A stretch of DNA of 64,000 nucleotides from Candidatus Izemoplasma sp. GTDB lineage: Bacteria > Bacillota_I > Bacilli_A > Izemoplasmatales > Izemoplasmataceae. The notes under the pieces were generated by a model that saw only the letters and a program-made list of their open reading frames with translations, was not told the DNA's origin and made no database searches. Position numbers and translations under genes: made by a program. Within the stretch, counting starts at the first letter, position 1; each line of letters opens with the position of its first letter. Below are positions 19,018 to 52,379 of the stretch, in pieces. The stretch is from the NCBI GenBank assembly GCA_018402725.1, contig JAGYII010000003.1, forward strand, positions 1-64,000, given 5' to 3'.

Positions 19018-20436
19018 GTGAAAATTACATTTGTAGGATCAGAAGCAACGCCTTTTGCAAAAACCGGTGGACTCGCGGATGTTTTAGGTAGTTTACCTTT
19101 ATATCTGGCCGAAAGAGGTCACCAGATTTCTTTGATTTTACCGAAGCATCAAAGCATTATAAAGCGCTTTAATGATCAATGTGAACCGGTGATAACCCTG
19201 CATATTGAAGGGCCCCAACATGAAAGTTATGCGGGTATCCAACTGATGAAGCATCAAGGCATCGATGTTTACTTTGTTGATAATGAGTACTACTTTGGAT
19301 TAAGACCTCAATTATACGGGGATTATGATGATGGCGAACGGTATGGCTTTTTCGCCCACGCCGTTTTAAAAACGATTGAAAAAGTATTACCTAAAACGGA
19401 GATTCTTCATCTTAATGATTGGCAGACAGGCCTGATTCCCTACCTTTTAAAATATGACGCTAAATACCAATCTTTAAATCACATTAAATCCGTATTTACG
19501 ATTCATAACATTGCTTATCAAGGACGTTTTTCTAAAGAATTAATGCCGTTTTTAAACACCGATTATTCCAATGTTTTAGAATTTGATGATGTGATCAACT
19601 TTCTAAAAACCGGTATCATGACGGCCGATCACGTCACGACCGTATCTCCGACTTATAAGGACCAACTTCAGCACGCATACTTTGCGTACGGAATGCAAGG
19701 CCTCTTAAAACTAAGAGAGCAAAGCTTCTCAGGCATTATTAATGGCATTGATTTTAATGAGTTTAATCCAAGTAAAGACAACGCCTTAAAAAAATCATAT
19801 ACGGCTAAAACTGTAACTGCTGGTAAAAAAGCCAATAAAAAAGACTTGATGGAAACCTTTGGCTTGAAAAATCCCAATTTACCTTTATTTGGAATGGTCT
19901 CAAGAATCACCGAAGCCAAAGGATTTGATTTGGTGGCAGACATTATTCCTACCCTGGTTGAGAAAGGTATCATGAACTTTGTCTTATTAGGGAGTGGCGA
20001 TCCTTATTTTGAACAAACCTTCCAATATTTCAAAGATCAGTATCCGGATCATTTTGGGGTTTATTTTGGCTATAGCGATGGGATGGCCCGTCAGATTTAT
20101 GCCGGAGCTGATTACTTCTTAATGCCATCACGCTTTGAACCCTGTGGGCTTGCCCAAATGATATCGATGCGCTATGGTACCCTTCCTGTGGTTCATAAAA
20201 CCGGGGGTCTTAAAGACACGGTCGAACCTTTCAATGAATATACCTTAGAAGGCACCGGCTTTGGCTTTGATACCTATCAAGCCGATGATTTAAAACAAGC
20301 CGTTTTATCCGCCATCAATGTTTTTGGGAATCAAGAAACCTATAAACTCCTTCAACAACGCGCTATGCAAGAAGATTTTTCTTGGGAATCCAGTGCGCAC
20401 CTTTATGAACAGCTCTACCAATCCTTAAGGGGGTAA
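19018..20436 (+). CDS. glgA: Glycogen synthase (ADP-glucose type)
   Basis: GT5 enzyme that extends alpha-1,4-glucan from ADP-glucose. 472 residues, GTG start after GAGGTG. The N-terminal ATPFAKTGGLADVLGSLP carries the KTGGL nucleotide-binding signature; LHLNDWQTGLIPYLLK, FTIHNIAYQGRF, GIINGIDFNEFNP and SRFEPCGLAQMISMRYG are in family order, with the C-terminal TGGLKDTVEPF. Three bases separate it from glgC, which makes the substrate. No branching enzyme or phosphorylase lies nearby. Confidence 0.96.
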   Translation: MKITFVGSEATPFAKTGGLADVLGSLPLYLAERGHQISLILPKHQSIIKRFNDQCEPVITLHIEGPQHESYAGIQLMKHQGIDVYFVDNEYYFGLRPQLYGDYDDGERYGFFAHAVLKTIEKVLPKTEILHLNDWQTGLIPYLLKYDAKYQSLNHIKSVFTIHNIAYQGRFSKELMPFLNTDYSNVLEFDDVINFLKTGIMTADHVTTVSPTYKDQLQHAYFAYGMQGLLKLREQSFSGIINGIDFNEFNPSKDNALKKSYTAKTVTAGKKANKKDLMETFGLKNPNLPLFGMVSRITEAKGFDLVADIIPTLVEKGIMNFVLLGSGDPYFEQTFQYFKDQYPDHFGVYFGYSDGMARQIYAGADYFLMPSRFEPCGLAQMISMRYGTLPVVHKTGGLKDTVEPFNEYTLEGTGFGFDTYQADDLKQAVLSAINVFGNQETYKLLQQRAMQEDFSWESSAHLYEQLYQSLRG

Positions 20437-20439
20437 CAC

Positions 20440-21663
20440 ATGAAAGTCCAAGCGTTTATCTTAGCCGGTGGACGTGGATCACGCCTTGACATTTTATCTG
20501 AAAAGCGAGTCAAACCGGCCGTCCCATTTGCAGGAAAGTATCGCATTATTGACTTCACCTTAAGTAACTGTGCCAACTCAGGGATTTATGATATTGGGAT
20601 ACTCACCCAGTATTTGCCCTTTTCATTGAATGAGCATATTGGTTCAGGAAAACCTTGGGATATGGACCGGAGAGATACCCAGCTTTCTTTAATGCAACCG
20701 CATAAGAATTGGTATAAAGGAACGGCGGATGCTTTGAAACAAAACATCGAATCCTTGCACCGTTCTAAGGCGGATTTAGTCTTGATTTTATCAGGCGATC
20801 ATATTTATAAAATGGATTATCGTCTCATGATTGATCACCACATAAAACTAAAGGCAGACGTTACCTTAGCAGTTCAACCTGTCCCAAAAGAAGATATTTC
20901 TCGGTTTGGGATATTAGAAACAGACGCCCATTCTAAAATTACGGCCTTTTTAGAAAAGCCAGAAAAAGCCGACAGTAATCTAGCTTCCATGGGCATTTAT
21001 GTTTTTAATAAAGCCGTCCTAATTGAAGCCCTTGAAACGTTTGAAGAAGAAGACTTAGACTTTGGAAAACATATAATTCCTGCGTATGTTGCTTCTAAAA
21101 CATGTGTGGCATACACGTTTAATGACTACTGGAAAGACGTAGGAACCTATGATGCTTACTTAGAAGCTAACTTAGAACTCACTGAAACCGTCGATAAGAT
21201 TCCCTTAGATATGTACGATCAAAACTGGAAGATATACACCCGCTCAGAAGAGATGCCCGCGGTTAAAGTGGGATCAAAAGCCGTCATTCGTCAAGCCTTG
21301 ATTTCGAACGGTTCAATCATTGCGGGTCATGTTGAAAGAAGTGTGATTTCACCAGGGGTGATCATTCATCCGACTGCCATTGTTCGTCACAGTGTGATTT
21401 TAAATGACACCGTGATCGAAGCCGGCGCGGTGATTGATCATGCGATTATTGATAAAAATGTCAGGGTTGAAAAAAACGCCGTGGTCGGACAAGGTCCCCA
21501 TGATATCCCTAATATAGACAAACCCGATTTATTATTCAGTGGTTTAAATGTTTTAGGAAAAGGCGTCATCGTCAAAGCCGATAGTATCATTGAAAGAAAT
21601 TGCCGAATTTACCCGAATCAAATTGTTAAAGGAACCATAAAAGCGGGAAGCACAATGAAATAA
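20440..21663 (+). CDS. glgC: Glucose-1-phosphate adenylyltransferase
   Basis: Makes ADP-glucose from ATP and alpha-glucose-1-phosphate. 407 residues: FILAGGRGSRLDILSEKR with the catalytic nucleotidyltransferase motif, KPAVPFAGKYRIIDFTLSNC, WYKGTADALKQN, ILSGDHIYKMDY, and a C-terminal left-handed helix of hexapeptides from about residue 290 (ISPGVIIHPTAIVRHS). It conserves the GTADA and SGDHIY residues, so it is the catalytic GlgC type. It supplies glgA immediately upstream; both end at the bidirectional terminator 21662-21687. Confidence 0.95.
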   Translation: MKVQAFILAGGRGSRLDILSEKRVKPAVPFAGKYRIIDFTLSNCANSGIYDIGILTQYLPFSLNEHIGSGKPWDMDRRDTQLSLMQPHKNWYKGTADALKQNIESLHRSKADLVLILSGDHIYKMDYRLMIDHHIKLKADVTLAVQPVPKEDISRFGILETDAHSKITAFLEKPEKADSNLASMGIYVFNKAVLIEALETFEEEDLDFGKHIIPAYVASKTCVAYTFNDYWKDVGTYDAYLEANLELTETVDKIPLDMYDQNWKIYTRSEEMPAVKVGSKAVIRQALISNGSIIAGHVERSVISPGVIIHPTAIVRHSVILNDTVIEAGAVIDHAIIDKNVRVEKNAVVGQGPHDIPNIDKPDLLFSGLNVLGKGVIVKADSIIERNCRIYPNQIVKGTIKAGSTMK

Positions 21664-40898: not shown

Positions 40899-41684
40899 TT
40901 ATTTGCGGGATTTGAATTCTAAGAACGGATCTACCTTGAGTCGCCACTCTGAAATTTTGTGTTCGGCATCTTTCATTGCATCATCATATAAAAGACTAGG
41001 GTGATGAGCATCGGCACTTAAAATGATTTTGACATCATAATTTCTGATGATGTCCCAAAACTCTTTTCGGGGATAAGGGTATCTTTTACCTTGAGAGGTT
41101 TGTTTGATGCCTCTTCTTATTCCGTTTGCGTTAAACTCTAAAGGGATTCCCGTGTCTTTGGCTGCTTTAGCAATGATGTGGGCCGCTTCAACCGCGGCGT
41201 CATCAAATGAATCATATCCACACATATAAATATCAGGATGGGCAAATAAACTAAAGTGACCTGAGTACAAGGCTTTTTTAACGTCCTGGGCATAGGTCTC
41301 AATATGTTCGGGAGCGAATAACGCAAAGGTGCTGATGTAGCGTCCGTTTTGAACGATATAATGTTGTCCTAATATGAGGTAATCAACTTCATTTAAGAAG
41401 TTTTGATAATAGCTTTCTTCAGGCTCGAGGTATTCACACTCTAAACCAAGGTGAACTTTAATCTTATCTTGATAGGCTAAAGCCGTCTCACGGACATCTT
41501 TATAATACTTTTCAAGGTCACGAAAATGCATCCGCATCGGATCAAGATTGAGTAATGAGGGAACATGGTCACTCATTCCAAGTTCAGTAAAACCTTGTTT
41601 AATGGCTTCTTTAACATAATCTTCCGTGGTTCCTTGAGCATGATTACATAGTTCATGGTGCGTATGATAATTGGCTTTGACCAT
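40899..41684 (-). CDS. PHP-family histidinol-phosphatase-like phosphatase
   Basis: 261 residues from ATG 41684 with GAGGT upstream. The PHP metal ligands appear as YHTHHELCNHAQG, MSDHVP, LGLECEYL, FAHPDIYM and SADAHHPS. The sequence follows the histidinol-phosphate phosphatase (HisK) pattern, including the DYVKEAIKQGF and GQHYI segments. No other histidine biosynthesis gene is visible, so another phosphoester could be the true substrate. Transcribed from its own extended -10 promoter. Confidence 0.85.
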   Translation of the reverse strand: MVKANYHTHHELCNHAQGTTEDYVKEAIKQGFTELGMSDHVPSLLNLDPMRMHFRDLEKYYKDVRETALAYQDKIKVHLGLECEYLEPEESYYQNFLNEVDYLILGQHYIVQNGRYISTFALFAPEHIETYAQDVKKALYSGHFSLFAHPDIYMCGYDSFDDAAVEAAHIIAKAAKDTGIPLEFNANGIRRGIKQTSQGKRYPYPRKEFWDIIRNYDVKIILSADAHHPSLLYDDAMKDAEHKISEWRLKVDPFLEFKSRK

Positions 41685-41702
41685 CAAATATACCTCATAA
41701 AT

Positions 41703-41780: not shown

Positions 41781-43025
41781 TTATTGGAGTGTACGAATGA
41801 GATCGGCTAGACGTTGTACGAATTGTTCTTTAGTAATGTTTCCTTGTGCATACTGGAAGTAGATTGGTCCAGCTTCGCCCATACCGAATCCAGAAGGCAT
41901 GTCATTTTGGAACCACGCCCATGATTTACCGGCTTGAGCCCAAACGTTCGCAGCCGCTGATAATGGTGCGGTAACGGGTAAAGTGACACTACGGAAGGCC
42001 GGCACCATGTTGGCTTTTTCAACCATATAGCTATGTCCCTCTTGAGTAAGAGCTAGATCATTTAAGAATTGGTTAGCCGCATCAGTATTGTTACCATCAC
42101 GGTTAATAACGTAGTATGAAGGAGCGCCAACGAAGATGGCATCCACGGTACCACTTACACTTGCATGAGGGGCGTAACCCACAGGGAAGTCAATGGCAGG
42201 TGCGCCAAGTAAGTTTGGATCAATCCAGTTTCCTTGATGAATGAAAGCTACTTTTTGATCTTTGAAAGCTCCTACTTGTGAATCGTAAGTACCTTCTAAG
42301 AGAATGGTTTGATCCGCATATTGAAAGAGTAATTCAACCCAGTCAGCAAGTTGTCCTAAGCGATCCATATTAGGTTGACCTGCTAATAAGTCTTCAATCA
42401 CGGAACGATCATCATAATCAAGACCCGCTGATAAGTAGCCATTGAAGTTATGAAGTCCTGTGACCCATTCCATCCCAGCGCCTGCAGCCATTCCGACAAC
42501 GCCCGTAAGGCCAAGTTCAGCTTTCATGCTGTCTAGTTTTTCAAAGGCAGCACGGTATCCGGCTAAACTGTTTAAACTAGCAGGATTAATGCCAGCAGCA
42601 TCTAAGATGTCTTTGTTATAACCCATACCCCATGCTTCAATGTTGACAGGGAAGCCATAAACCACACCATCGACGGTTAAACCAAGATCGGTATCATCCA
42701 TCCATGCTTGATTTTCAAAGGGTAAAATTTTATCTTTGAAATCATTGAACCCGCCTAGACCTTCAATAACGAAGATGTCAGGTTGGTCCGTACCTTGGAA
42801 CTCAGTTAAGATACGATCGCCGTAAGCACAGGCATCACCACCACATGAACGAACGGTCACGGTAATTCCGTTTTCTTCGCCCCAGGCGTCAGCGTACTCA
42901 CGTAAGATTGCATCAATTTCCACTTTGTTTTGGAAAATGATTAATTCAGTATCCCCTGATCCGCCACACGCTGCTAAGGTAACAACGGTGAACAAAGCAA
43001 GTAATAAAAGTAAAACTTTTTTCAT
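41781..43025 (-). CDS. Sugar ABC transporter substrate-binding lipoprotein
   Basis: Extracellular solute-binding protein family 1. 414 residues. The signal peptide KKVLLLLLALFTVVTLAAC ends in a lipobox with Cys20, so it is anchored on the outer face of the membrane. The mature part has the family 1 pattern, with a possible disulphide (CGGDAC). Pocket residues are not identifiable by eye. It has its own promoter but belongs to the same locus as the two permeases at 46056-47962. The binding of a di- or oligosaccharide is inferred from the GH65 and fructokinase genes. Confidence 0.88.
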   Translation of the reverse strand: MKKVLLLLLALFTVVTLAACGGSGDTELIIFQNKVEIDAILREYADAWGEENGITVTVRSCGGDACAYGDRILTEFQGTDQPDIFVIEGLGGFNDFKDKILPFENQAWMDDTDLGLTVDGVVYGFPVNIEAWGMGYNKDILDAAGINPASLNSLAGYRAAFEKLDSMKAELGLTGVVGMAAGAGMEWVTGLHNFNGYLSAGLDYDDRSVIEDLLAGQPNMDRLGQLADWVELLFQYADQTILLEGTYDSQVGAFKDQKVAFIHQGNWIDPNLLGAPAIDFPVGYAPHASVSGTVDAIFVGAPSYYVINRDGNNTDAANQFLNDLALTQEGHSYMVEKANMVPAFRSVTLPVTAPLSAAANVWAQAGKSWAWFQNDMPSGFGMGEAGPIYFQYAQGNITKEQFVQRLADLIRTLQ

Positions 43026-43141: not shown

Positions 43142-43157
43142 TTGGAAAGCTTTCCAA
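43142..43157. promoter_or_regulatory. Perfect palindromic operator candidate
   Basis: TTGGAAAGCTTTCCAA is a perfect 16-base palindrome between the GH65 and binding-protein genes. Near copies stand at the fructokinase promoter and the lacI promoter (50378, 51451), which makes it the probable binding site of the local LacI-family regulator. Confidence 0.7.
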
Positions 43158-43173
43158 GTAAGGCTTATCAATA

Positions 43174-45408
43174 TCACGTATTTAAGCCATTTATTGGGAT
43201 TTCAATGGGTTTTGAAGAAAGCGTATAAAGTTGATTATAAATCTTCATTTCGACCGGATCTGAGGCATAAACTGATAACGTATGATCTTTAATCATGACT
43301 GTTACCGTCTTCGTTTCATGAACTTTAAACTGACCTTTAAATGCTGGCCAGTCCGTGGGCCAATGAGGATTTAGTTGAATAATTGGTTCGACTTTTAAGC
43401 CTAAGAACCCAAACCATAAGCCTAAATGAACGCCCCCAAGATTGGCAAGATGTAAACCATGGAGTGTATTCAGATGGGTATTGTCAAGATCAATTCTAAG
43501 GGTCTCTTGATACATGGTTTTGGCTTCTTCTAACCGATTTAAGCGGGCCGCCATCCCTGCATGTATACACATCGATAACGATGAATCATGGGTGGTGCGT
43601 TTTAAATAATAATCATAACTATTTCCCATCGTCTTCCATGGGCGGTTTTGCAAGATGAAATGTGCAAGCACGGTATCGGCTTGCTTTAAGACTTGGTGGC
43701 GATAAATTGTTAAGGGGTGAAAGTGAAGTAATAACGGTACTTTATCTTTTGGGGTGTTTTTAAAATCCCAAGGCTTCCGTTGTAAAAAGCCATCATCTTG
43801 AACATCGATATCAAGTGTCTGATCATGTAGTAAGACCAAAGTGTCTTTGATCCGCTTAAATAAACCGAGTTCTTCTTCGGATTGATAATAGGAATCTCCT
43901 AAAAGGGATAAGTCAGCTGGATTCTCATTAAAATAATCGAGCATAAAACCCATTTGATGGACAATCATTTGATTGGTATAAAAATTATTATTAACGACGG
44001 CCGAATATTCATCAGGGCCGGTCACATTATTTAAATGGCACTGCGTTCCATCATCATAAATCATCTCGGTAAAGAAGCGGGCCGTCTCAATTAAGATTGG
44101 GAGTCCAGTACGTCTCATCCATGCTTGATTTTGGTGCAGCGTGTAAATCTGAATAATGATATGAACAATGGCGCTATTAATATGAAATTGAGCCGATCCA
44201 GCAGCATAGTAGGCTGAATTTTCTTTTCCGGTGATCGTGCGCCATGCAAACTTCGCCCCTCTTTTAGCACCTAAAATTTGGGCTTCTTTTTTGGCAGCGT
44301 CAAGTTGATGGAAACGATATTGAATTAAATCATAGGCTTTTTGAGGTTCGTGAAGCATGAAATAAGGGACCATGTACATTTCAGTATCCCAAAAGGTGTG
44401 ACCATGATAGCCTTTTCCGGTTAAGCCTTTGGCCGCAATTGAAACAGAATCATCATAACCCCCAGCGGTGGCTAGTTGAAATAAGTTGTAGTGGATGGCT
44501 TCATCATTAGATGAATGATTGGTTTCTATGGTCATTTCAGCATCTTTAAGCCAGCTTTGTAAGCGTACTTGATGAGCGTTGAAAGAAAGATCCCAGCCGG
44601 GTATCTCGGTGATTACAGGCCGGATTTTTTCTTCTAACTCAGGGTGGGTTTTAGCCACTTTATAATGGGCAGACTTTAAGAGTTTAAACGGCTGTTCAGG
44701 ACTCAAATAAAAAGTGTCTTCATAACTGAGCCGGGTCGAACAAGGAACGTTTGATAAAACCGGTTCGTGCTTGATAACGGCTGCTAAGTATTGTTCGGTG
44801 TGATGCGTTTTAAAAAGGGCTAAGCCGCCTTGTTGTAAGGGCTCAAGCCGGATAATTTCTAAAGGCTGATTGTTATCATCAATCCGGGGATCACCGGATT
44901 GGATGGATGTCGTCTTTGTCTCAAGCGTACTTCGAATCGAAATAGGTCCTTCATAGGTTTCACTAGAAAGGGTCCATTCATTAAGGAATAGGCCTGGTTC
45001 TGCGGCAGAAACAAAACGGCGGGTAAAGATATGAAAAAGCCCCAATGTGGGGTGTTGATACGTGGTTTTTCTTTCTACGATTCCCGTCTTTAAATCAAAT
45101 GACCTTTGATTTTTTAAGACCTTGGCAGTTTGATAATGAACCGGCAAACCTTCAATAAAAAATTCAATGGTTTGGGCATCAGGAACTGACACCATGAATT
45201 CATTTCTTGAAGGGAATCCGTAGGCTTTTTCACCGTAATGAATGAGCTCTGTATCAAAAAAACCATTGATAAAAGTCCCTCTTAAAGGTTCGATATCGCC
45301 GGCTTCTTCGATGTTATGACGAACCCCTAAAGACCGATTTTGAACGGCATAAACCGAAGCAAGGTATAAATCCTCAGAGGTGAGTTTATCGGTGTGTTGT
45401 AATCGCAC
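43174..45408 (-). CDS. Glycoside hydrolase family 65 phosphorylase
   Basis: Inverting phosphorylase that splits an alpha-glucoside with phosphate to give beta-glucose-1-phosphate. 744 residues, standard for kojibiose/maltose/trehalose/nigerose phosphorylases. YHGHTFWDTEMYMVPYF, the catalytic acid in VTGPDEYSAVVNNNFYTN (about residue 466), the phosphate-site KQADTVLAHF and the SLSMCIHAGMAARL segment are present. The linkage specificity cannot be read by eye. PgmB is encoded immediately upstream, completing the route to glucose-6-phosphate. The gap of 9 bases indicates one operon. Confidence 0.93.
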   Translation of the reverse strand: MRLQHTDKLTSEDLYLASVYAVQNRSLGVRHNIEEAGDIEPLRGTFINGFFDTELIHYGEKAYGFPSRNEFMVSVPDAQTIEFFIEGLPVHYQTAKVLKNQRSFDLKTGIVERKTTYQHPTLGLFHIFTRRFVSAAEPGLFLNEWTLSSETYEGPISIRSTLETKTTSIQSGDPRIDDNNQPLEIIRLEPLQQGGLALFKTHHTEQYLAAVIKHEPVLSNVPCSTRLSYEDTFYLSPEQPFKLLKSAHYKVAKTHPELEEKIRPVITEIPGWDLSFNAHQVRLQSWLKDAEMTIETNHSSNDEAIHYNLFQLATAGGYDDSVSIAAKGLTGKGYHGHTFWDTEMYMVPYFMLHEPQKAYDLIQYRFHQLDAAKKEAQILGAKRGAKFAWRTITGKENSAYYAAGSAQFHINSAIVHIIIQIYTLHQNQAWMRRTGLPILIETARFFTEMIYDDGTQCHLNNVTGPDEYSAVVNNNFYTNQMIVHQMGFMLDYFNENPADLSLLGDSYYQSEEELGLFKRIKDTLVLLHDQTLDIDVQDDGFLQRKPWDFKNTPKDKVPLLLHFHPLTIYRHQVLKQADTVLAHFILQNRPWKTMGNSYDYYLKRTTHDSSLSMCIHAGMAARLNRLEEAKTMYQETLRIDLDNTHLNTLHGLHLANLGGVHLGLWFGFLGLKVEPIIQLNPHWPTDWPAFKGQFKVHETKTVTVMIKDHTLSVYASDPVEMKIYNQLYTLSSKPIEIPINGLNT

Positions 45409-45417
45409 AATGGACTC

Positions 45418-46056
45418 CTAGTCAAATAGATAATAAGGGATGTCAGCTAATGTTTTAAAAACGACATCCGCCTTTAAAGTCTTTGGATCTCCAATCCCAA
45501 TGGCTTTCATTTTAGCGGCTTTAATCGCCGCAATGCCTGCCGGAGCATCTTCAACCCCGAGCGCCTGTTCAGGGCTTACATGAAGAGCTTCCAGTCCTTC
45601 TATGAAAAGGCCTGGATCCGGTTTTGAAGGATGGAGGGCCGGATTAGAGACGTGTGAGAAATAATGGGTAATTCCTAATTTTTCAATTAACATGGGAGCG
45701 TTTAAAGACGCACTTGCAAGCCCTAATAAAAGGCCTTTGTGCTTTAAGGTTTCAAAGAGTTCAAGCACCCCAGGATAAAGGTCCGCTTCAGTCATCGTCT
45801 TTATTTTTTCTAAGTAGACTTCATTTTTTTTAGCGGCGAGTGATTCAAGTTGAGAGGTTTTAAATGAGGTTTTTGGAAGATAAACGTCTGTGATTTTTTT
45901 AATCGAATCAAACCGTGAAATTCCGCGAAGCTCTGGTTCAAAGGACGCCTTTAGTTCAATGCCCACTGAAGCCACCGTCTCTTTCCATGCGGCAAAATGA
46001 TACGTCGAGGTATCGGTTAAGACCCCATCTAAGTCAAAAATGACGGCTTTAATCAT
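45418..46056 (-). CDS. pgmB: Beta-phosphoglucomutase
   Basis: Converts beta-glucose-1-phosphate to glucose-6-phosphate. 212 residues. The nucleophile and acid are in FDLDGVLTDTSTYHF, the phosphate-binding ASASLNAP and KPDPGLFIEGLEAL (Lys), and GVEDAPAGIAAIKAAKM holds the Mg2+ Asp. R in RGISRFDS is the substrate-binding residue. Position between the GH65 phosphorylase and a permease gene fits the expected phosphorolytic pathway. The ATG overlaps the permease stop by one base. Confidence 0.93.
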   Translation of the reverse strand: MIKAVIFDLDGVLTDTSTYHFAAWKETVASVGIELKASFEPELRGISRFDSIKKITDVYLPKTSFKTSQLESLAAKKNEVYLEKIKTMTEADLYPGVLELFETLKHKGLLLGLASASLNAPMLIEKLGITHYFSHVSNPALHPSKPDPGLFIEGLEALHVSPEQALGVEDAPAGIAAIKAAKMKAIGIGDPKTLKADVVFKTLADIPYYLFD

Positions 46057-46997
46057 TATTTAATGGCTCCAGAAGTCATGCCTTTGATGATGTGTTTTTG
46101 GGCAAACAAGAATAACACCACGACCGGGAAGGCAGCCATTAAGACGGACGTTAAAATCAAGTCCCACTGTCTAACATAGGCCCCCGCTAAGCTGGCGACC
46201 GCTAAGGGCAGGGTCTGGGTCGAACCTCCCACCCCAATGATGAGGATGGGCAAGAGATAATCATTCCATATCCACATCCCATTTAAGACGAGTAAGGTCA
46301 CAAAGATGGGTTTTAAGATAGGGAGGACAATCCTAAAGAATAGTTGCGGTTTATTACAGCCGTCAATAATCGCGGCTTCTTCAATTTCAAGGGGGATCGA
46401 TTTAATAAAACCATGGAGTAAGAAAACACTTAAAGGGGCGCCAAAACCAATGTAGGCTAAGATCACTCCGTGATGCGTATCTCTAATGCCAATCCCAGTC
46501 CACATCGTAATCAGCTCTAAAAAACGAACCAAAGGAAGCATCACGACCTGGAAAGGAATAACCAGCCCAGAGACAAATAATAAAAAGATGGCCGTAGAGA
46601 TTTTTGTTTTAGTCCTGACCAGGACCCAGGCCGCCATCCCACTCGTCACTCCAATTAAAACCAAGGAGAATGAGGTGATGATGACGGAGTTAAAAAATGA
46701 TTGTAAATAGCGAATTTGGGAGGCTTGTAAAATGGTTTGAATATTGGTCCAAAGCATCCCAAAGGATTCCGGTAAACTCGTCGGCGTCCTGACGATCTCA
46801 GCAATCGGTTTAGCGGCATTAATAGTAACGATGTAAAACGGATATAAGAACAAAAGCATCAGTAAGAAGACAAAAACTTCAATGATATGAATGGGGCGAA
46901 GTTTAAAGGTCTTCACCGAGTGCCCAAAATCTTTCATCCATTTTTTGGGTTGCCATTTGAAGGTTTTTAGCTTGTGTAGCCATTTAGCATCCATCAT
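46056..46997 (-). CDS. ABC sugar permease, MalG type
   Basis: 313 residues with six membrane segments after a basic N-terminal region. The cytoplasmic EAA loop reads EEAAIIDGCNKPQLFFRIVLPILKP, which contacts the ATPase. It pairs with the MalF-type permease upstream. No ATP-binding subunit is encoded in this locus; a shared MsmX/MsmK-like ATPase elsewhere would be needed. Ends with WNDYLLPILI and QKHIIKGMTSGAIK, typical of MalG. Confidence 0.93.
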   Translation of the reverse strand: MMDAKWLHKLKTFKWQPKKWMKDFGHSVKTFKLRPIHIIEVFVFLLMLLFLYPFYIVTINAAKPIAEIVRTPTSLPESFGMLWTNIQTILQASQIRYLQSFFNSVIITSFSLVLIGVTSGMAAWVLVRTKTKISTAIFLLFVSGLVIPFQVVMLPLVRFLELITMWTGIGIRDTHHGVILAYIGFGAPLSVFLLHGFIKSIPLEIEEAAIIDGCNKPQLFFRIVLPILKPIFVTLLVLNGMWIWNDYLLPILIIGVGGSTQTLPLAVASLAGAYVRQWDLILTSVLMAAFPVVVLFLFAQKHIIKGMTSGAIK

Positions 46998-47962
46998 TAG
47001 AGTTCCACCTCCCGTTTCTTATTGACGTAAACTTGGGTGATTGAAATCAGTAATAAGACCGCAAAGAAAACAATCGCTTTCGCCTGTCCAACTCCCATGT
47101 TAAAACGGGTAAAGGCTTCGCGGTAAATATCCACCGCCATTAAACTCGTGCCTGAGACTGTTGGAATCGTAGTGATGTTGAGTAAGTTACGGATGTATAA
47201 GGGCAAATCTGTGGCTGGTCCTGAGTTGGTTAAACTTTGAACCGTATCAAATTGCTTAAAGGAGGTCACTAAGGTTAAGAACAAGGCGACCGTAAAAGCT
47301 TGAGCCACAAGGGGTAAGACAATCGCCCGCATTCTTTGAACGGCGTTTGCCCCATCAATTTTTGAAGCTTCAATCAAATCTTCAGGGATGTTTTGTAACG
47401 CGGCGATGTAAATCATCATGATATACCCGGCATACTGCCACGTCACGACCGCAATTAAAGCGAACATCGCATCATTAGGGCTACTTGATAGCGGGGAACG
47501 CTCTAAAAGTTGAAGGCCGACTTGTCCAGCAATAATGTTGTTAAAGATGAATTGCCAAATAAATCCAAGAACCAATCCCCCAATTAAATTGGGGATAAAG
47601 AAGGCCGCGCGGTAAACATTTTTAAGTTTAAACTTCTGAGTCACCAGTAAAGAAAGTCCAAAGGCCACACCGTTAATGACTAAAATATTTAAGACTGAGT
47701 AAATCACGGTCCGGCTGAATGAATAGATAAAACGATAATCGGTAAAAATCGTCCGGTAGTTTTCAAAGCCAATCAGAATTTGACGGCCCGTGTTAAGTCC
47801 GGTCCAATCCGTCATTGAAAAATAGACGCCCATGAAAAACGGGACCCACACCATAATCGCGAAGGCACCAAGTGCTGGGGCTAAAAAGAGCCAAAACCAA
47901 AGGCGTTCAGACGCTTTTTTACCGAGTTTTTTCTTGGGGTTAAGTTTGATTGCTTGTGCCAT
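46997..47962 (-). CDS. ABC sugar permease, MalF type
   Basis: 321 residues from ATG 47962; AGGAGG lies five bases upstream (the ATG three bases earlier is too close to it). Six membrane helices, EAA loop EASKIDGANAVQRMRAIVLPL. KKKLGKKASERLWFWLFLAPALGAF begins the first helix. It overlaps the end of the GT4 gene by about 26 bases, showing tight coupling to that enzyme, and is followed by the MalG-type subunit. Confidence 0.93.
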   Translation of the reverse strand: MAQAIKLNPKKKLGKKASERLWFWLFLAPALGAFAIMVWVPFFMGVYFSMTDWTGLNTGRQILIGFENYRTIFTDYRFIYSFSRTVIYSVLNILVINGVAFGLSLLVTQKFKLKNVYRAAFFIPNLIGGLVLGFIWQFIFNNIIAGQVGLQLLERSPLSSSPNDAMFALIAVVTWQYAGYIMMIYIAALQNIPEDLIEASKIDGANAVQRMRAIVLPLVAQAFTVALFLTLVTSFKQFDTVQSLTNSGPATDLPLYIRNLLNITTIPTVSGTSLMAVDIYREAFTRFNMGVGQAKAIVFFAVLLLISITQVYVNKKREVEL

Positions 47963-49424
47963 CATGACCTCCTAAGTAATGAGTGTTAAGGACATTCATT
48001 GCGTCACACTGGGCGGGAACATCTTTTGGCCAGGTGATCTTTTTAGGTTTATAGTTGAGGCGTATGCCGTCCATACTTTCTAAGTATTTTTTAGCGGTGG
48101 CTTTCCAGGTGTAGGATGTCTCGACTCTTTTTAAGCCTTGAGCTTGGTAGGTGGAATGATGATCGATGATTTCATGAAGACCTCTGGCAATATCAAAATG
48201 ATCGTTCACATCTAACAAGACGCCAAAGGATTCATTCCCTGATTTTAAGACATCTGCAGGCCCCCCATACTTCGTCACTGCAGCGGGTAATCCTGCACAC
48301 ATGGCTTCGATGGGAGCAAGACCAAAGGGCTCGTAGGTGGAGGTTAAACAAAAGACGCTTTGCTGTTTAGCAAAATAACGATAGCTCGCGGCTAAGGCGC
48401 CTTGAGACATGATGTTAATAAAACTAACCATCCCTTTTAATTGATGAGTATTAATCACGTCCATCAATTGATCCATTAAGACTTTCTCTTCGTTTTTTAA
48501 AGCATCATAGGTAGAAAAAGCATCTTCAACCCCTCTTAAACTAATTGCGATGTTTGCTTTAGCCTGCAAGGATTTATCCTTGGCATAGGCTTCAAGAAGT
48601 CCTAAGTGATTTTTCTTTTGATCTAAACGAGAGGCTAAGACAATATAGGGTAGATTGAGTCGTGACGTTTCAATATCACGGTGTAAAGCGTTTTTGATTT
48701 GAGTGTAGGTTTGTTCTTCTTCGGCGTTTAGCGCGTTCATCCCAAAGACTCTTTCGTTCACTCCAGGGGCCGCTACCACAAAAGCATCAGGTTTTTCTTT
48801 TGAAATATCTTGATACGCAAAGTGGTTATATTGTTCATCTTTTTCTTGAGCGGTGGACGTAAATATTAAGCTCGCATTTTGAATGGCAATCCGTTCAGCC
48901 ATAAGGCGGTCGGCAAAAAAGTAGCGGGCTTGCATTTGAACGGCATTATCTTTACTGACTTTTAATTTATCCATTTTCTGGGCGCCTAAGGAATGACCCG
49001 TAAATGAATAGGGCACGTTTAACCGTGAGGCAAGCAAGGCACCCGCATAGCCGCCATCGCCATAATGGGTGGTAATGAAGTCGATGCTACGTCCCTCTTC
49101 TTGGTAAAAGGCGATGATGTGATCAACCCATTCACTTAAAAAGGGCCAAAGTTTTTCTTTATCAATAAACTGATCAGGACCTGCATGAATCCTCACAATC
49201 CGGGCATTTGGATAATCCTTATAGTGATCAATCAACGTTTCAAATCCTGAAAGTTCATGATCATTAAAGCGCCGCGTCACGATATCTACGGTATGACCCA
49301 GTTCAGACATCGCAAGGGCGATTTCTTTCACATATACGAGTTGGCCCCCAAAATCAGGGTGTTCGGTCCAGTAACGGTCTTGAGGATCAAAGTTGCCTTG
49401 GGGATTTAGAAATAAGATATGCAC
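47940..49424 (-). CDS. Sucrose-phosphate-synthase-like GT4 glycosyltransferase
   Basis: 494 residues from a GTG start that shares a base with the fructokinase stop. The beginning MHILFLNPQGNFDP, YWTEHPDFGGQLVYVKE, DIVTRRFND, TTHYGDGGYAGALL and TGHSLGAQKM match bacterial sucrose-phosphate synthase closely, and ASRLDQKKNHLGLLEAY, SLRGVEDAF, TSTYEPFGLAPIEAMCAGLP and TKYGGPADVL complete the GT-B nucleotide-sugar site. It has only the glycosyltransferase part; no phosphatase domain or adjacent sucrose-phosphatase. In this catabolic operon it could work as a sucrose synthase in the cleaving direction, or make a glucosyl-fructose. Its direction is unknown. Confidence 0.85.
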   Translation of the reverse strand: MHILFLNPQGNFDPQDRYWTEHPDFGGQLVYVKEIALAMSELGHTVDIVTRRFNDHELSGFETLIDHYKDYPNARIVRIHAGPDQFIDKEKLWPFLSEWVDHIIAFYQEEGRSIDFITTHYGDGGYAGALLASRLNVPYSFTGHSLGAQKMDKLKVSKDNAVQMQARYFFADRLMAERIAIQNASLIFTSTAQEKDEQYNHFAYQDISKEKPDAFVVAAPGVNERVFGMNALNAEEEQTYTQIKNALHRDIETSRLNLPYIVLASRLDQKKNHLGLLEAYAKDKSLQAKANIAISLRGVEDAFSTYDALKNEEKVLMDQLMDVINTHQLKGMVSFINIMSQGALAASYRYFAKQQSVFCLTSTYEPFGLAPIEAMCAGLPAAVTKYGGPADVLKSGNESFGVLLDVNDHFDIARGLHEIIDHHSTYQAQGLKRVETSYTWKATAKKYLESMDGIRLNYKPKKITWPKDVPAQCDAMNVLNTHYLGGHDGTSNQT

Positions 49425-50353
49425 TATAAGACTCCTTTAGTGAGCTCTTGGTAGTGAGGAAGGGGAGCTAAGGCTCCAATGACATTAAGGACCAACGCAC
49501 TCACAACTTGGGCGTCATCCCATGCTTTTTCAGTCGAGTTCCCATGAAGTAAGCTGGTATAAAATCCGCTATAAAAAGCATCGCCTGCTCCTGTGGTATC
49601 AACGACCTCTTTTGTTTTAGAGGGGACAAGGGTTCGGTGTTTATTTTCACTGATATAAATACCATCTTTTCCAAGACTTAAGATAATCACTGGAATGCCG
49701 TAAGCTTCAAATCGGTCCATGATCGCTTCTTTACTTAAGTCGCCCCATAAACGCTTGGCATCATCAAGCGAAGGTTTAATGAAATCAAGACGTCTAAATA
49801 AAGACTCTAAAGCCTCTAAAGAAATCATCTCCTGATGATCAAGCGCCTCATGAATATTAGGATCAAAGCCAATCACTGCGCCAGATTTTTCTGCCTCATC
49901 TAGACATTTTAAAAGGGTATCTAAGGCGGGCTTACGGGTTAAAGGCCAATAGGAAAAATGGAAAATGCGGGTTTGACGGACCGCCTTCAACAAGGCTTCA
50001 TTAAAAGGAATGTGATAATCAGCCCCTCGTAAAAAGGAAGGGTCTGGGGTGGCTTTAGATTGAGTTAAAGATACGATCGATGTCGGGGAATCGACGACGT
50101 TAATTAAATGAGTCGATAAACCATAGTCGTTAAACCGATTGAGGATTAAATCGCCCTCTTGATCAGCGCCGACTGCGCCTACAAATAAAACACGCGATCC
50201 AAGTTGATGCATATTAATCGCGATGTTAGATGGAGAACCCCCTACTAAGGAATGCTCGTGATGGGCGTCATCAGTAATCCGGTCAATAAGCACTTCCCCA
50301 AAGGTGATGATATCAACGGGATAATGGTTCGTCTTAAGCAACTTCTCTTTCAT
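49424..50353 (-). CDS. PfkB-family fructokinase-like sugar kinase
   Basis: 309 residues from ATG 50353 (AAAGGGG upstream; an earlier in-frame ATG at 50392 lies inside the operator). ITFGEVLIDRI, LVGGSPSNIAINMHQLG and FVGAVGADQEGD form the N-terminal sugar site; the signature DTTGAGDAFYSGFY with the catalytic Asp ends it. FLRGADYHI supports the fructokinase subgroup. In this locus it would turn fructose, released by a sucrose-type reaction, into fructose-6-phosphate. Its stop is coupled to the GT4 start. Confidence 0.88.
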   Translation of the reverse strand: MKEKLLKTNHYPVDIITFGEVLIDRITDDAHHEHSLVGGSPSNIAINMHQLGSRVLFVGAVGADQEGDLILNRFNDYGLSTHLINVVDSPTSIVSLTQSKATPDPSFLRGADYHIPFNEALLKAVRQTRIFHFSYWPLTRKPALDTLLKCLDEAEKSGAVIGFDPNIHEALDHQEMISLEALESLFRRLDFIKPSLDDAKRLWGDLSKEAIMDRFEAYGIPVIILSLGKDGIYISENKHRTLVPSKTKEVVDTTGAGDAFYSGFYTSLLHGNSTEKAWDDAQVVSALVLNVIGALAPLPHYQELTKGVL

Positions 50354-50377
50354 CAGGCACCCCTTTAGTTGTAAAAG

Positions 50378-50427
50378 TGGAAAGCTTTTCATAACTTCAT
50401 TATAGTAACCGCTTACATGAAAGTCAA
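50378..50427 (-). promoter_or_regulatory. Strong promoter and LacI-type operator before the fructokinase gene
   Basis: On the minus strand TTGACT (50427-50422), 17-base spacer, TATAAT (50404-50399), then, right downstream at 50391-50378, TGAAAAGCTTTCCA, a near copy of the palindrome at 43142. A repressor bound there would block initiation. Confidence 0.8.
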
Positions 50428-50432
50428 GGCTT

Positions 50433-51413
50433 TTAAGCGCTAAAGCCTTTACGCAATGTCACTGGTAAGATAATATCTTCAACGGAATCTCCCTCGATCA
50501 TCGCAATCATGTTGGCAGCGATATGAAAACCAATGGCTTCAATCGGCTGCTGAATCGCGGTGAGGCCTCCTAAATTAAAGAACGGACCTTCAATCCCATC
50601 AAAACTAATAATCTTGACGTCATCGGGTATTTTTTTACCCATTTCTTGATAAAGCTGAATCAGGGTATATCCCAGTTCATCCGAAATCGCAAAGATGCCA
50701 TCATAATCAAGATGTCGATAGACGATTTCACGAATAAAGTTTTTAGGGATAAATAAATCCCCTTGGGGATATTCAATGACCTTGTAGTCTTTAAATCCAA
50801 TTTGGTCTAAGTAATCGACAAATCCTAAGCGGCGCTTAGAGACCTCGGTGGTGATTCTAGAGAGTTCGCCCTGGGCATCATCCCCAATGAATAAGAGCTT
50901 TTTAGCGCCTGAAGCAATCAGTGTTTTTGCGGCTATTTGACCGCCTTTATAGTTATCCGTGGTCACGTAGGGAATCCCTTTAAAACGGCGATCAAAGGAG
51001 ATAACTGGGTAGTTTTTAGGAATCAATTTTTCAACATCGTTACTGGTTAAAAAGACGATGCCATCGACCCGTTGGTTTTTTAACATCCCAATCAGTTCAA
51101 TTTCTTTTTGTGCATCTGACCCGGAGTTGCAGACCATTAGTTTATAATTAAGTTGTGACAAGGCATTTTCAAGATGATAAATAAGCGAAGCAAAAAAAAT
51201 GTGATGGGAATAAGGCACCACAAATCCAATGATTCCACTTCTTTGTTTAGTCATGCTGCGGGCGATTTCATTGGGGGTATACCCTAGTTCATTAATCACA
51301 GCTTGAATCTTTAAGCGTGTGGATTCTTTGACCCGGGGTTGATTATTTAAAACCCGAGAAACCGTCGCAATGCCAACGCCTGCTTTTTTTGCTACATCTT
51401 TAATCGTTGCCAT
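50433..51413 (-). CDS. LacI-family transcriptional regulator
   Basis: 326 residues. N-terminal HTH TIKDVAKKAGVGIATVSRVLNN with hinge RSMTKQRSGIIGFVVPYSHH, then the periplasmic-binding-like effector domain (MVCNSGSDAQKE, RVDGIVFLTSN, IISFDGIEG). It is the first gene of the sugar locus and is predicted to bind the TGGAAAGCTTTCCA-like sites, one of which overlaps its own -35. The inducer is unknown. Confidence 0.93.
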   Translation of the reverse strand: MATIKDVAKKAGVGIATVSRVLNNQPRVKESTRLKIQAVINELGYTPNEIARSMTKQRSGIIGFVVPYSHHIFFASLIYHLENALSQLNYKLMVCNSGSDAQKEIELIGMLKNQRVDGIVFLTSNDVEKLIPKNYPVISFDRRFKGIPYVTTDNYKGGQIAAKTLIASGAKKLLFIGDDAQGELSRITTEVSKRRLGFVDYLDQIGFKDYKVIEYPQGDLFIPKNFIREIVYRHLDYDGIFAISDELGYTLIQLYQEMGKKIPDDVKIISFDGIEGPFFNLGGLTAIQQPIEAIGFHIAANMIAMIEGDSVEDIILPVTLRKGFSA

Positions 51414-51428
51414 TTTTCACCTGTTTAT

Positions 51429-51464
51429 ATTATACTAAATATCGCTAAAATGTAAACCTTTCCA
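51429..51464 (-). promoter_or_regulatory. Promoter of lacI with overlapping operator
   Basis: On the minus strand -35 TTTACA (51456-51451), 16-base spacer, -10 TATAAT (51434-51429). TGTAAACCTTTCCA (51451-51464) overlaps the -35 and matches the other operators at 12 of 14 bases, so autoregulation is likely. Confidence 0.65.
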
Positions 51465-51487: not shown

Positions 51488-52379
51488 ATGAAGAAATGGT
51501 TTAAAATTACGGGTTGGTTTTTCATGAGTTTATTGGTCTTATTAGGAGGTCTTCATCTGACTTCTAAAATCATGATTCAACAACTCACGGAAGCGGCTCA
51601 AGGGACTCCTTTATTTGAATCAGTTGAATACGTTCAAGTCGATAATCATAATCTCGCTTATAGGGTCTATAATCCCGGTCAAGAAAAAACCGTGGTGATG
51701 ATTCACGGCTTCATGGGGAGCAGTTATGAATTTAATGACTTCTTCTTAACTATGGGCGCTGACAGTGATTTTACTTTCATTGCCTTTGACACCATGGGAT
51801 TTGGGCTTTCTGATAAGCCTTTAGACTTTGAATACACTTCTCAAAATCATGCGGTCACTTTAATGCAAGCGATTGATAATCTTGGGATTGAAACCTTTTC
51901 CTTAATGGGTCATTCAATGGGGGGTGGCATTGCCATCCGGATGAGTCTGCTTGATCAAAGTCGGATTGAAAATTTAGTTTTAATTGCGGCGACAGGACCC
52001 ACCCTTATGGAAGGAGGTAATGGAGCCCCGGCTTTATGGTTTTTTGATGTCCTCTTTAAAAACTATTTTGCGCAGCGTCTTGGCATTAATTCCGCCACGG
52101 TCGGAAAAACCTTTCACGAGAGACATTTGCACCCTTTATCGCTCAAAATGCAGCGATTCCAAGTACCGTCTTACAAAATTCACTTTAGACCAAGATATCG
52201 TGTCCTATTTTGACGATCTCAAAGGATTAACTGTTAGAACCTTCTTATTTACGGTGCAGAAGACAGCTGGACGTCTCCATCCTTATTACTCACCTATGTC
52301 CAAGAAATGCCTCGTTCATCAGGGTATCAACTCGCAAACAGTGGGACACTTACCTTATTTAGAACAACCTGAGAACTAA
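51488..52379 (+). CDS. Membrane-anchored alpha/beta hydrolase, C-terminus frame-shifted
   Basis: The intact N-terminal ~215 residues have one membrane helix (residues 8-27) followed by an alpha/beta hydrolase fold: MIHGFMGSSYEF (oxyanion), FDTMGFGLSDKP, and the nucleophile elbow MGHSMGGGIA. From about 52140 the frame shifts; the remainder, including LDQDIVSYFDDLKGLTV and a closing GHLPYLEQPEN with the likely catalytic His, is readable in another frame, ending at 52379. Substrate unknown. Divergent from lacI, with AAGGAG before the ATG. Confidence 0.8.

Follow-up and report, generated by a model that had tools for sequence, protein, structure and literature searches.

An SPS-like glycosyltransferase paired with a PfkB kinase in a sugar-import regulon of Candidatus Izemoplasma: a possible route of sucrose cleavage

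Background

The sucrose-phosphate synthase (SPS) of Halothermothrix orenii has served as a structural model of the plant enzyme. Its structures (2r60, 2r66 and 2r68) are also the closest comparison for a GT4-family glycosyltransferase that we describe here from a 64,000-nucleotide stretch of a Candidatus Izemoplasma genome (contig JAGYII010000003.1, hereafter the window): the two proteins are 50% identical and the contacts to the phosphate of fructose-6-phosphate (F6P) are all kept. The H. orenii enzyme has been described as an SPS, for which an osmotic role was suggested (PMC2626281). An H. orenii fructokinase homologue (3hj6) is the best PDB match of the kinase encoded next to our GT4 gene, and related Halanaerobiales carry the same PfkB-GT4 gene pair. 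The Halanaerobiales pairs, however, lie by an alpha-glucan phosphorylase and their kinases have the fructokinase arginine; in the window the pair is part of a LacI-regulated ABC-import/GH65 operon, and the kinase has a histidine in place of that arginine.

Other described systems resemble the locus in part. Sucrose synthases (AtSUS1, 3s27; N. europaea, 4rbn) have the GT4 GT-B fold and UDP/glucose-site residues in common with the window enzyme, and their reversible cleavage of sucrose feeding a fructokinase is akin to what we propose below for the window pair, but identity is only 22-23%, the N-terminal domains of sucrose synthase are missing and the acceptor-phosphate position holds Arg rather than Gln. 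Two-domain SPS-SPP enzymes, and SPS proteins with a partner SPP (the T. elongatus SPS; a plasmid-borne Acidithiobacillus protein, L125), share the GT4 domain and the basic residues for the phosphate of sucrose-6-phosphate (S6P); in those systems a HAD phosphatase works with the synthase, either as a domain or as a separate partner, while the window GT4 has none and a PfkB kinase stands in that place. The LacI-regulated csc/scr sucrose operons contain a LacI regulator, a transporter and a PfkB kinase, as does the window, which in contrast lacks ScrB and ScrP and has GT4, GH65 and an ABC importer instead. In a survey of LacI regulons, scrP, scrB and scrK are the only enzymes listed for sucrose catabolism (PMC4052901), and our literature search found no description of SPS-kinase fusions, sucrose kinases or this operon arrangement.

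Results and discussion

Gene cluster and GT4 protein

The cluster, its operator, the regulon free of sucrose phosphatase, the F6P site, the adjacency and fusions of the kinase and its Arg-to-His change are all read from sequence. Nine genes follow one another on the same strand:

50433..51413, minus strand: LacI-family regulator, presumed binder of three operators (profiles; position kept in relatives)
49424..50392, minus strand: PfkB-family sugar kinase (profile and Pfam matches, residue alignment)
47940..49424, minus strand: GT4 enzyme of the H. orenii SPS type, without phosphatase domain (phmmer, NCBIfam, Pfam; AlphaFold2 model)
46997..47965, minus strand: ABC sugar importer permease, MalF type (profiles; relatives' loci)
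46056..46997, minus strand: ABC sugar importer permease, MalG type (profiles; relatives' loci)
45418..46056, minus strand: beta-phosphoglucomutase (TIGR01990, 206 bits, over the cut-off of 189)
43174..45408, minus strand: GH65 phosphorylase with catalytic GPDEY and phosphate-site residues (profiles, alignment)
41781..43025, minus strand: sugar-binding lipoprotein (SBP) of the importer (profiles)
40899..41687, minus strand: PHP-family phosphatase-like gene, placed here within the genus only (profiles)

The order LacI-PfkB-GT4-MalF-MalG-(beta-phosphoglucomutase)-GH65-SBP recurs, with minor rearrangements, in 18 genomes of the same taxonomic order (full order was read wherever the relatives' contigs were long enough), and their GT4 homologues are about 50-65% identical to that of the window. 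The PHP-family gene at the cluster end, possibly a sugar phosphatase, is confined to the window's genus. Every complete cluster of the order contains a GH65 gene and some contain two, the second a distant one (L025:16910-19156, L026:959-3229, L033:12597-14858). The GPDEY, KQAD and THDSSLS motifs of the window's GH65 align with those of kojibiose and maltose phosphorylases, and a beta-phosphoglucomutase adjoins it; its PDB relatives gave no assignment of specificity. The genome is 85% complete and contains frameshifts. At 51488-52379 an alpha/beta-hydrolase gene appears to be broken up over two overlapping frames, through either a frameshift or an error of assembly, and similar damage surrounds L141:4141-5800.

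The GT4 frame encodes 494 amino acids from a GTG start and overlaps the kinase frame by 1 nt and that of the MalF-like permease by 26 nt. This layout, the motifs NPQGNFDP, GGQLVYVKE and GHSLGAQKM, and the lack of a phosphatase domain, all part of the original prediction for the gene, proved real: Pfam finds GT4/GT-B domains only and no HAD/S6PP domain. The motifs, read there as those of bacterial SPS, instead mark an H. orenii-type clade rather than SPS at large, since sucrose synthase and SPS-SPP proteins differ from that clade at N14, Q16 and N18. In phmmer searches of the PDB the nearest solved protein is 2r60 (E 9e-142), followed by sucrose synthases (E 3e-29 and 8e-28), and T. elongatus SPS matches at E 1e-21. 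An AlphaFold2 model, built on an alignment of window and locus sequences alone, reached a pLDDT of 91.9, and Foldseek again placed 2r60 first and sucrose synthases second. The NCBIfam model of the SPS glycosyltransferase domain (TIGR02472) scores 284 bits, below its cut-off of 576.

Acceptor site

A study of T. elongatus SPS assigns the binding of the S6P phosphate to Arg105 and Arg178 (PMC7264703), and we transferred the residue roles given there by alignment. In the H. orenii enzyme the two arginines correspond to Lys96 and Arg180, which, together with Ser152 and Lys157, are invariant in 101 of 101 members of the clade, the window included; Arg270, Lys275, Glu369 and Glu377 of the NDP-glucose site are invariant as well. 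Every testable F6P contact is thus kept in the window enzyme. At the position of Arg180, Gln is found in sucrose synthases but Arg in SPS-SPP proteins and in an MshA-like protein. The natural acceptor of MshA is a phosphorylated inositol. Because the Lys96/Arg180 phosphate site is invariant and sucrose synthases have Gln in it, the GT4 enzyme probably handles a phosphorylated fructosyl group. This is our main evidence that the GT4 is not simply a sucrose synthase; the earlier proposal of such an enzyme, or of one with a different acceptor, is not supported.

Kinase partner

A PfkB gene adjoins GT4 in 66 of the 94 loci scanned and is fused to it in seven more, and a uridine-kinase/PRK-type kinase adjoins GT4 in a further six, so that 79 of 94 loci have a kinase next to or joined with GT4 (the locus set does not contain the H. 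orenii genome, and the neighbours of the crystallised SPS are accordingly not among them). The P-loop kinase (cluster c17; L069:769-1401, L098:6542-7183 and others) occurs where PfkB is missing and looks like a non-orthologous replacement. Altogether 14 natural fusions were recovered, 13 in the order GT4-PfkB, one of these cut by a contig end, and one, from Anaerovirgula multivorans, in the order PfkB-GT4. The existence of fusions in both domain orders argues for a direct coupling of the two proteins in metabolism. The fusions include L071:9041-11500, L101:196-2625 and L104:9998-12511 besides 11 other loci, and their hosts are Clostridia, Chloroflexi, Rubrobacteraceae and Elusimicrobia. Relatives of 810-840 amino acids had been candidates for SPS-SPP fusions; Pfam shows a PfkB domain instead.

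The window kinase has the catalytic GAGD and the PfkB fold. In active plant fructokinases seven fructose-site residues are always conserved, one of which is Arg192 of tomato FRK (PMC5864856), and Arg stands at this position in 3hj6, 5ey7, 4du5, 1tyy and 2qhp, the fructokinases of H. orenii and V. cholerae included. The window kinase has His there, as do all aligned PfkB proteins of the order and those of Caloramator, Anaerovirgula, L078 and L086, whereas Ser or Asp is the usual residue in Chloroflexi and Actinobacteria. Where the neighbour is an alpha-glucan phosphorylase, in Halanaerobiales and some Clostridiales, the arginine is kept in 15 of 15 scored loci. Since the exchange follows phylogeny, it may not imply a new substrate; still, it weakens the label "fructokinase" in import operons, as a lead and not as proof. 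The coupling to this kinase, the fusions in either order and the exchanged residue go beyond the original prediction and are the most informative features of the locus. In Halanaerobiales, the neighbours of the SPS-PfkB pair include an alpha-glucan phosphorylase and a type I pullulanase (L044:5554-7455, L046:8138-9757), suggesting a glycogen/S6P link in halophiles.

The acceptor site and the kinase site bear on another interpretation, namely that GT4 works as a functional sucrose synthase (sucrose + UDP or ADP giving NDP-glucose + fructose) and PfkB, as an ordinary fructokinase, takes the second step. Such an order of reactions would explain a kinase beside or fused to GT4, the catabolic context and the rank of sucrose synthase as second-best structural match; bacterial sucrose synthases, moreover, work best with ADP and do not have the plant QN motif (PMC10465243), which is absent from the window GT4 and its clade too. 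It explains everything but these two sites, i.e., an Arg180 invariant in all 101 sequences where sucrose synthase has Gln, and a kinase without the fructose-site Arg. With the N-terminal domains of sucrose synthase missing from a protein of 494 amino acids and the sucrose-synthase model (TIGR02470) scoring 142.6 bits where its cut-off is 810, we regard it as unlikely.

Operator and search for a sucrose phosphatase

Three sites in the window fit the operator consensus TGRAAASSTTTYCA, whose centre is GC, CC or GG:

51451..51464, minus strand: operator TGGAAAGGTTTACA, upstream of lacI
50378..50391, minus strand: operator TGAAAAGCTTTCCA, upstream of pfkB-GT4
43143..43156, no strand assigned: perfect palindromic operator TGGAAAGCTTTCCA, upstream of the SBP gene

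These are three copies of TGGAAASSTTTMCA at no more than one mismatch, against a mean of 0.22 in shuffled sequence, where no shuffle reached three. The relatives' loci (281 kb) contain 20 sites versus 0.1 expected from mononucleotide shuffles, 19 of them directly upstream of the pfkB, lacI, first permease or GH65 gene of the cluster. Across the genome just one further exact site was found; it lies within a broken ORF, close to a different sugar ABC locus (C38:68391), and was left uncounted. As operators precede the cluster genes and exact sites are otherwise nearly absent from the genome, pfkB-GT4, the importer and GH65 appear to form a single sugar regulon of their own, in which no sucrose phosphatase is included. 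We infer that the neighbouring LacI binds the three predicted operators. The first ATG of the PfkB frame is probably not the true start, because an operator occupies 50378-50391.

No sucrose phosphatase was found in the operon or in the operator-defined regulon, in line with the original prediction that none adjoins GT4; that prediction had also weighed conserved F6P contacts occurring together with a phosphatase gene elsewhere in the regulon, and we find the former, among the contacts that are testable, without the latter. The SPP model TIGR01485 exceeded its cut-off in none of the 19 GT4-bearing genomes, a result that means little by itself since the S. elongatus control fell below the cut-off too. 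Cof-type HADs are present in every genome searched. Among the candidates set aside, PF05116 matches in the window's own genome are short Cof-type matches that also occur in 11 of 14 control genomes, and the HAD protein of the operon is the beta-phosphoglucomutase (TIGR01990 over cut-off). Halanaerobacter (L056) is the only case in 94 loci with Cof-type HADs, two of them, directly after GT4.

The missing phosphatase bears on the conventional direction, in which NDP-glucose and F6P would give S6P and a moonlighting PHP-family or Cof-type HAD phosphatase would release sucrose as a reserve or compatible solute. The intact F6P site of GT4 would suit it, as would the Halanaerobium pair beside alpha-glucan phosphorylase and pullulanase, the description of the H. 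orenii enzyme as an SPS with a possible osmotic role (PMC2626281) and the two Cof-type HADs next door in Halanaerobacter. In the window's clade, however, GT4 is co-regulated with an importer and phosphorylases, the regulon has no sucrose phosphatase and the PHP gene is confined to the genus. Forward synthesis with another phosphatase suits the halophilic relatives better than the window's clade, for which we consider it improbable; a compatible-solute role, already judged odd next to an importer, is unlikely as the sole function in an import regulon without SPP.

Candidate sugar

In the GT4 tree, 19 window-type sequences group with Anaerovirgula L071, Bacillota L078 and Clostridium L086 (99% SH-aLRT), all three of which have GT4 in LacI/ABC-import contexts. 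The importer operons of L071 and L086 carry a GH32 of the ScrB-type cluster, and ScrB-family GH32 enzymes in the importer operons of the nearest outgroups point to sucrose as the sugar. Caloramator has orthologues of the window's SBP (53-56% identity) and permeases beside LacI-PfkB-GT4, with no GH65 near them in the region read; importer and pair occurring there without a nearby GH65, the importer appears to travel with the PfkB-GT4 pair. Together with the order-wide cluster and the common operator, this bears out the earlier suggestion that GT4 acts with sugar import. No GH32 was found in the window's genome (85% complete), and gtfA (sucrose phosphorylase) was over cut-off in none of 19 genomes; within that completeness, PfkB-GT4 is the only candidate sucrose-cleaving system seen in the window's genome.

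What GH65 does in such a pathway is a guess: it might trim extra glucosyl units, e.g., from glucosylsucroses, which occur as solutes in cyanobacteria (PMC9909042). The same observations, a GH65 (sometimes two) in every complete cluster of the order, the natural occurrence of glucosylsucroses and the altered sugar site of the kinase, would also fit a true substrate that is a related alpha-glucosyl fructoside or trisaccharide (glucosylsucrose or turanose-like), with GT4 and PfkB acting on a fructosyl-phosphate other than S6P. Yet the GT4 pocket matches that of the S6P-binding H. orenii enzyme and GH32 replaces GH65 in sister operons, which makes this quite unlikely in our view.

Proposed route

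We postulate, tentatively and at slightly less than an even chance, that GT4 and PfkB form a sucrose-cleaving pair working in the catabolic direction via a phosphorylated intermediate. We prefer an order in which the kinase acts first, PfkB making S6P and GT4 cleaving it with an NDP, since this would explain the phosphate site and the coupling to a kinase as well as the lack of a phosphatase and the presence of an importer. The fully specified version, with ADP as the nucleotide and ADP-glucose and F6P as the products, is rather doubtful as it stands. Which sugar is used, in which direction, in what order of reactions and with which nucleotide are deductions from gene content and residues. Sucrose, or glucosylated sucrose trimmed by GH65, would come in via the ABC importer; PfkB would convert sucrose and ATP to S6P and ADP, placing the 6-phosphate on the fructosyl part, most likely of sucrose itself; and GT4, running in reverse, would turn S6P and NDP into NDP-glucose and F6P. 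The beta-glucose-1-phosphate from GH65 would pass to beta-phosphoglucomutase.

Several points count against this. SPS usually runs towards S6P, and we know of no PfkB that phosphorylates a disaccharide. Our literature search brought up no measured activity for any importer-linked member of the clade. Phosphatase activity on S6P might conceivably come from Cof-type HADs, from the downstream PHP-family protein (in this genus only) or from the HADs of L056, and would also tell against catabolism.

Were the proposed route true, part of the H. orenii-type "SPS" clade would be catabolic, and bacteria would possess an additional intracellular route for splitting sucrose beside hydrolysis and phosphorolysis, with the bond energy kept in an NDP-sugar. 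If the clade is coupled to a kinase in place of a phosphatase and serves sucrose breakdown in import operons, many bacterial genomes carry the annotation "sucrose-phosphate synthase" for an enzyme whose metabolic direction it gets wrong. The natural PfkB-GT4 fusions would be ready-made bifunctional catalysts, of possible use in NDP-glucose regeneration.

Nucleotide

The window also encodes two proteins of ADP-glucose metabolism:

19018..20436, plus strand: GlgA glycogen synthase, ADP-glucose type (nucleotide context)
20440..21663, plus strand: GlgC (only intact NTP_transferase-family protein in each of four genus genomes)

No GalU was found in the four genus genomes. Since GlgC occurs there without GalU, and the QN motif is absent from GT4 as it is from bacterial sucrose synthases, ADP is the better guess for the NDP in the window's genus. 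ADP-glucose formed by GT4 could go to GlgA, or back via GlgC as glucose-1-phosphate and ATP; with GlgC the net reaction would be sucrose + PPi giving glucose-1-phosphate + F6P at no ATP cost. That GlgC is the only PF00483 nucleotidyltransferase found in the genus, with neither GalU nor a GlmU of this family, would be unusual for a bacterium. Eukaryote-type UGPase (PF01704) had no match anywhere, controls included, and is uninformative.

Elsewhere in the clade UDP may be used: a GalT-like uridylyltransferase adjoins GT4 in Caloramator, Anaerovirgula and Thermohalobacter. Such GalT-like genes (DUF4921/DUF4931-like, below the galT cut-off) were seen next to GT4 at L063:4757-5686, L075:11458-12381 and L059:11503-12528, and their products might act on UDP-glucose made or used at the GT4 locus.
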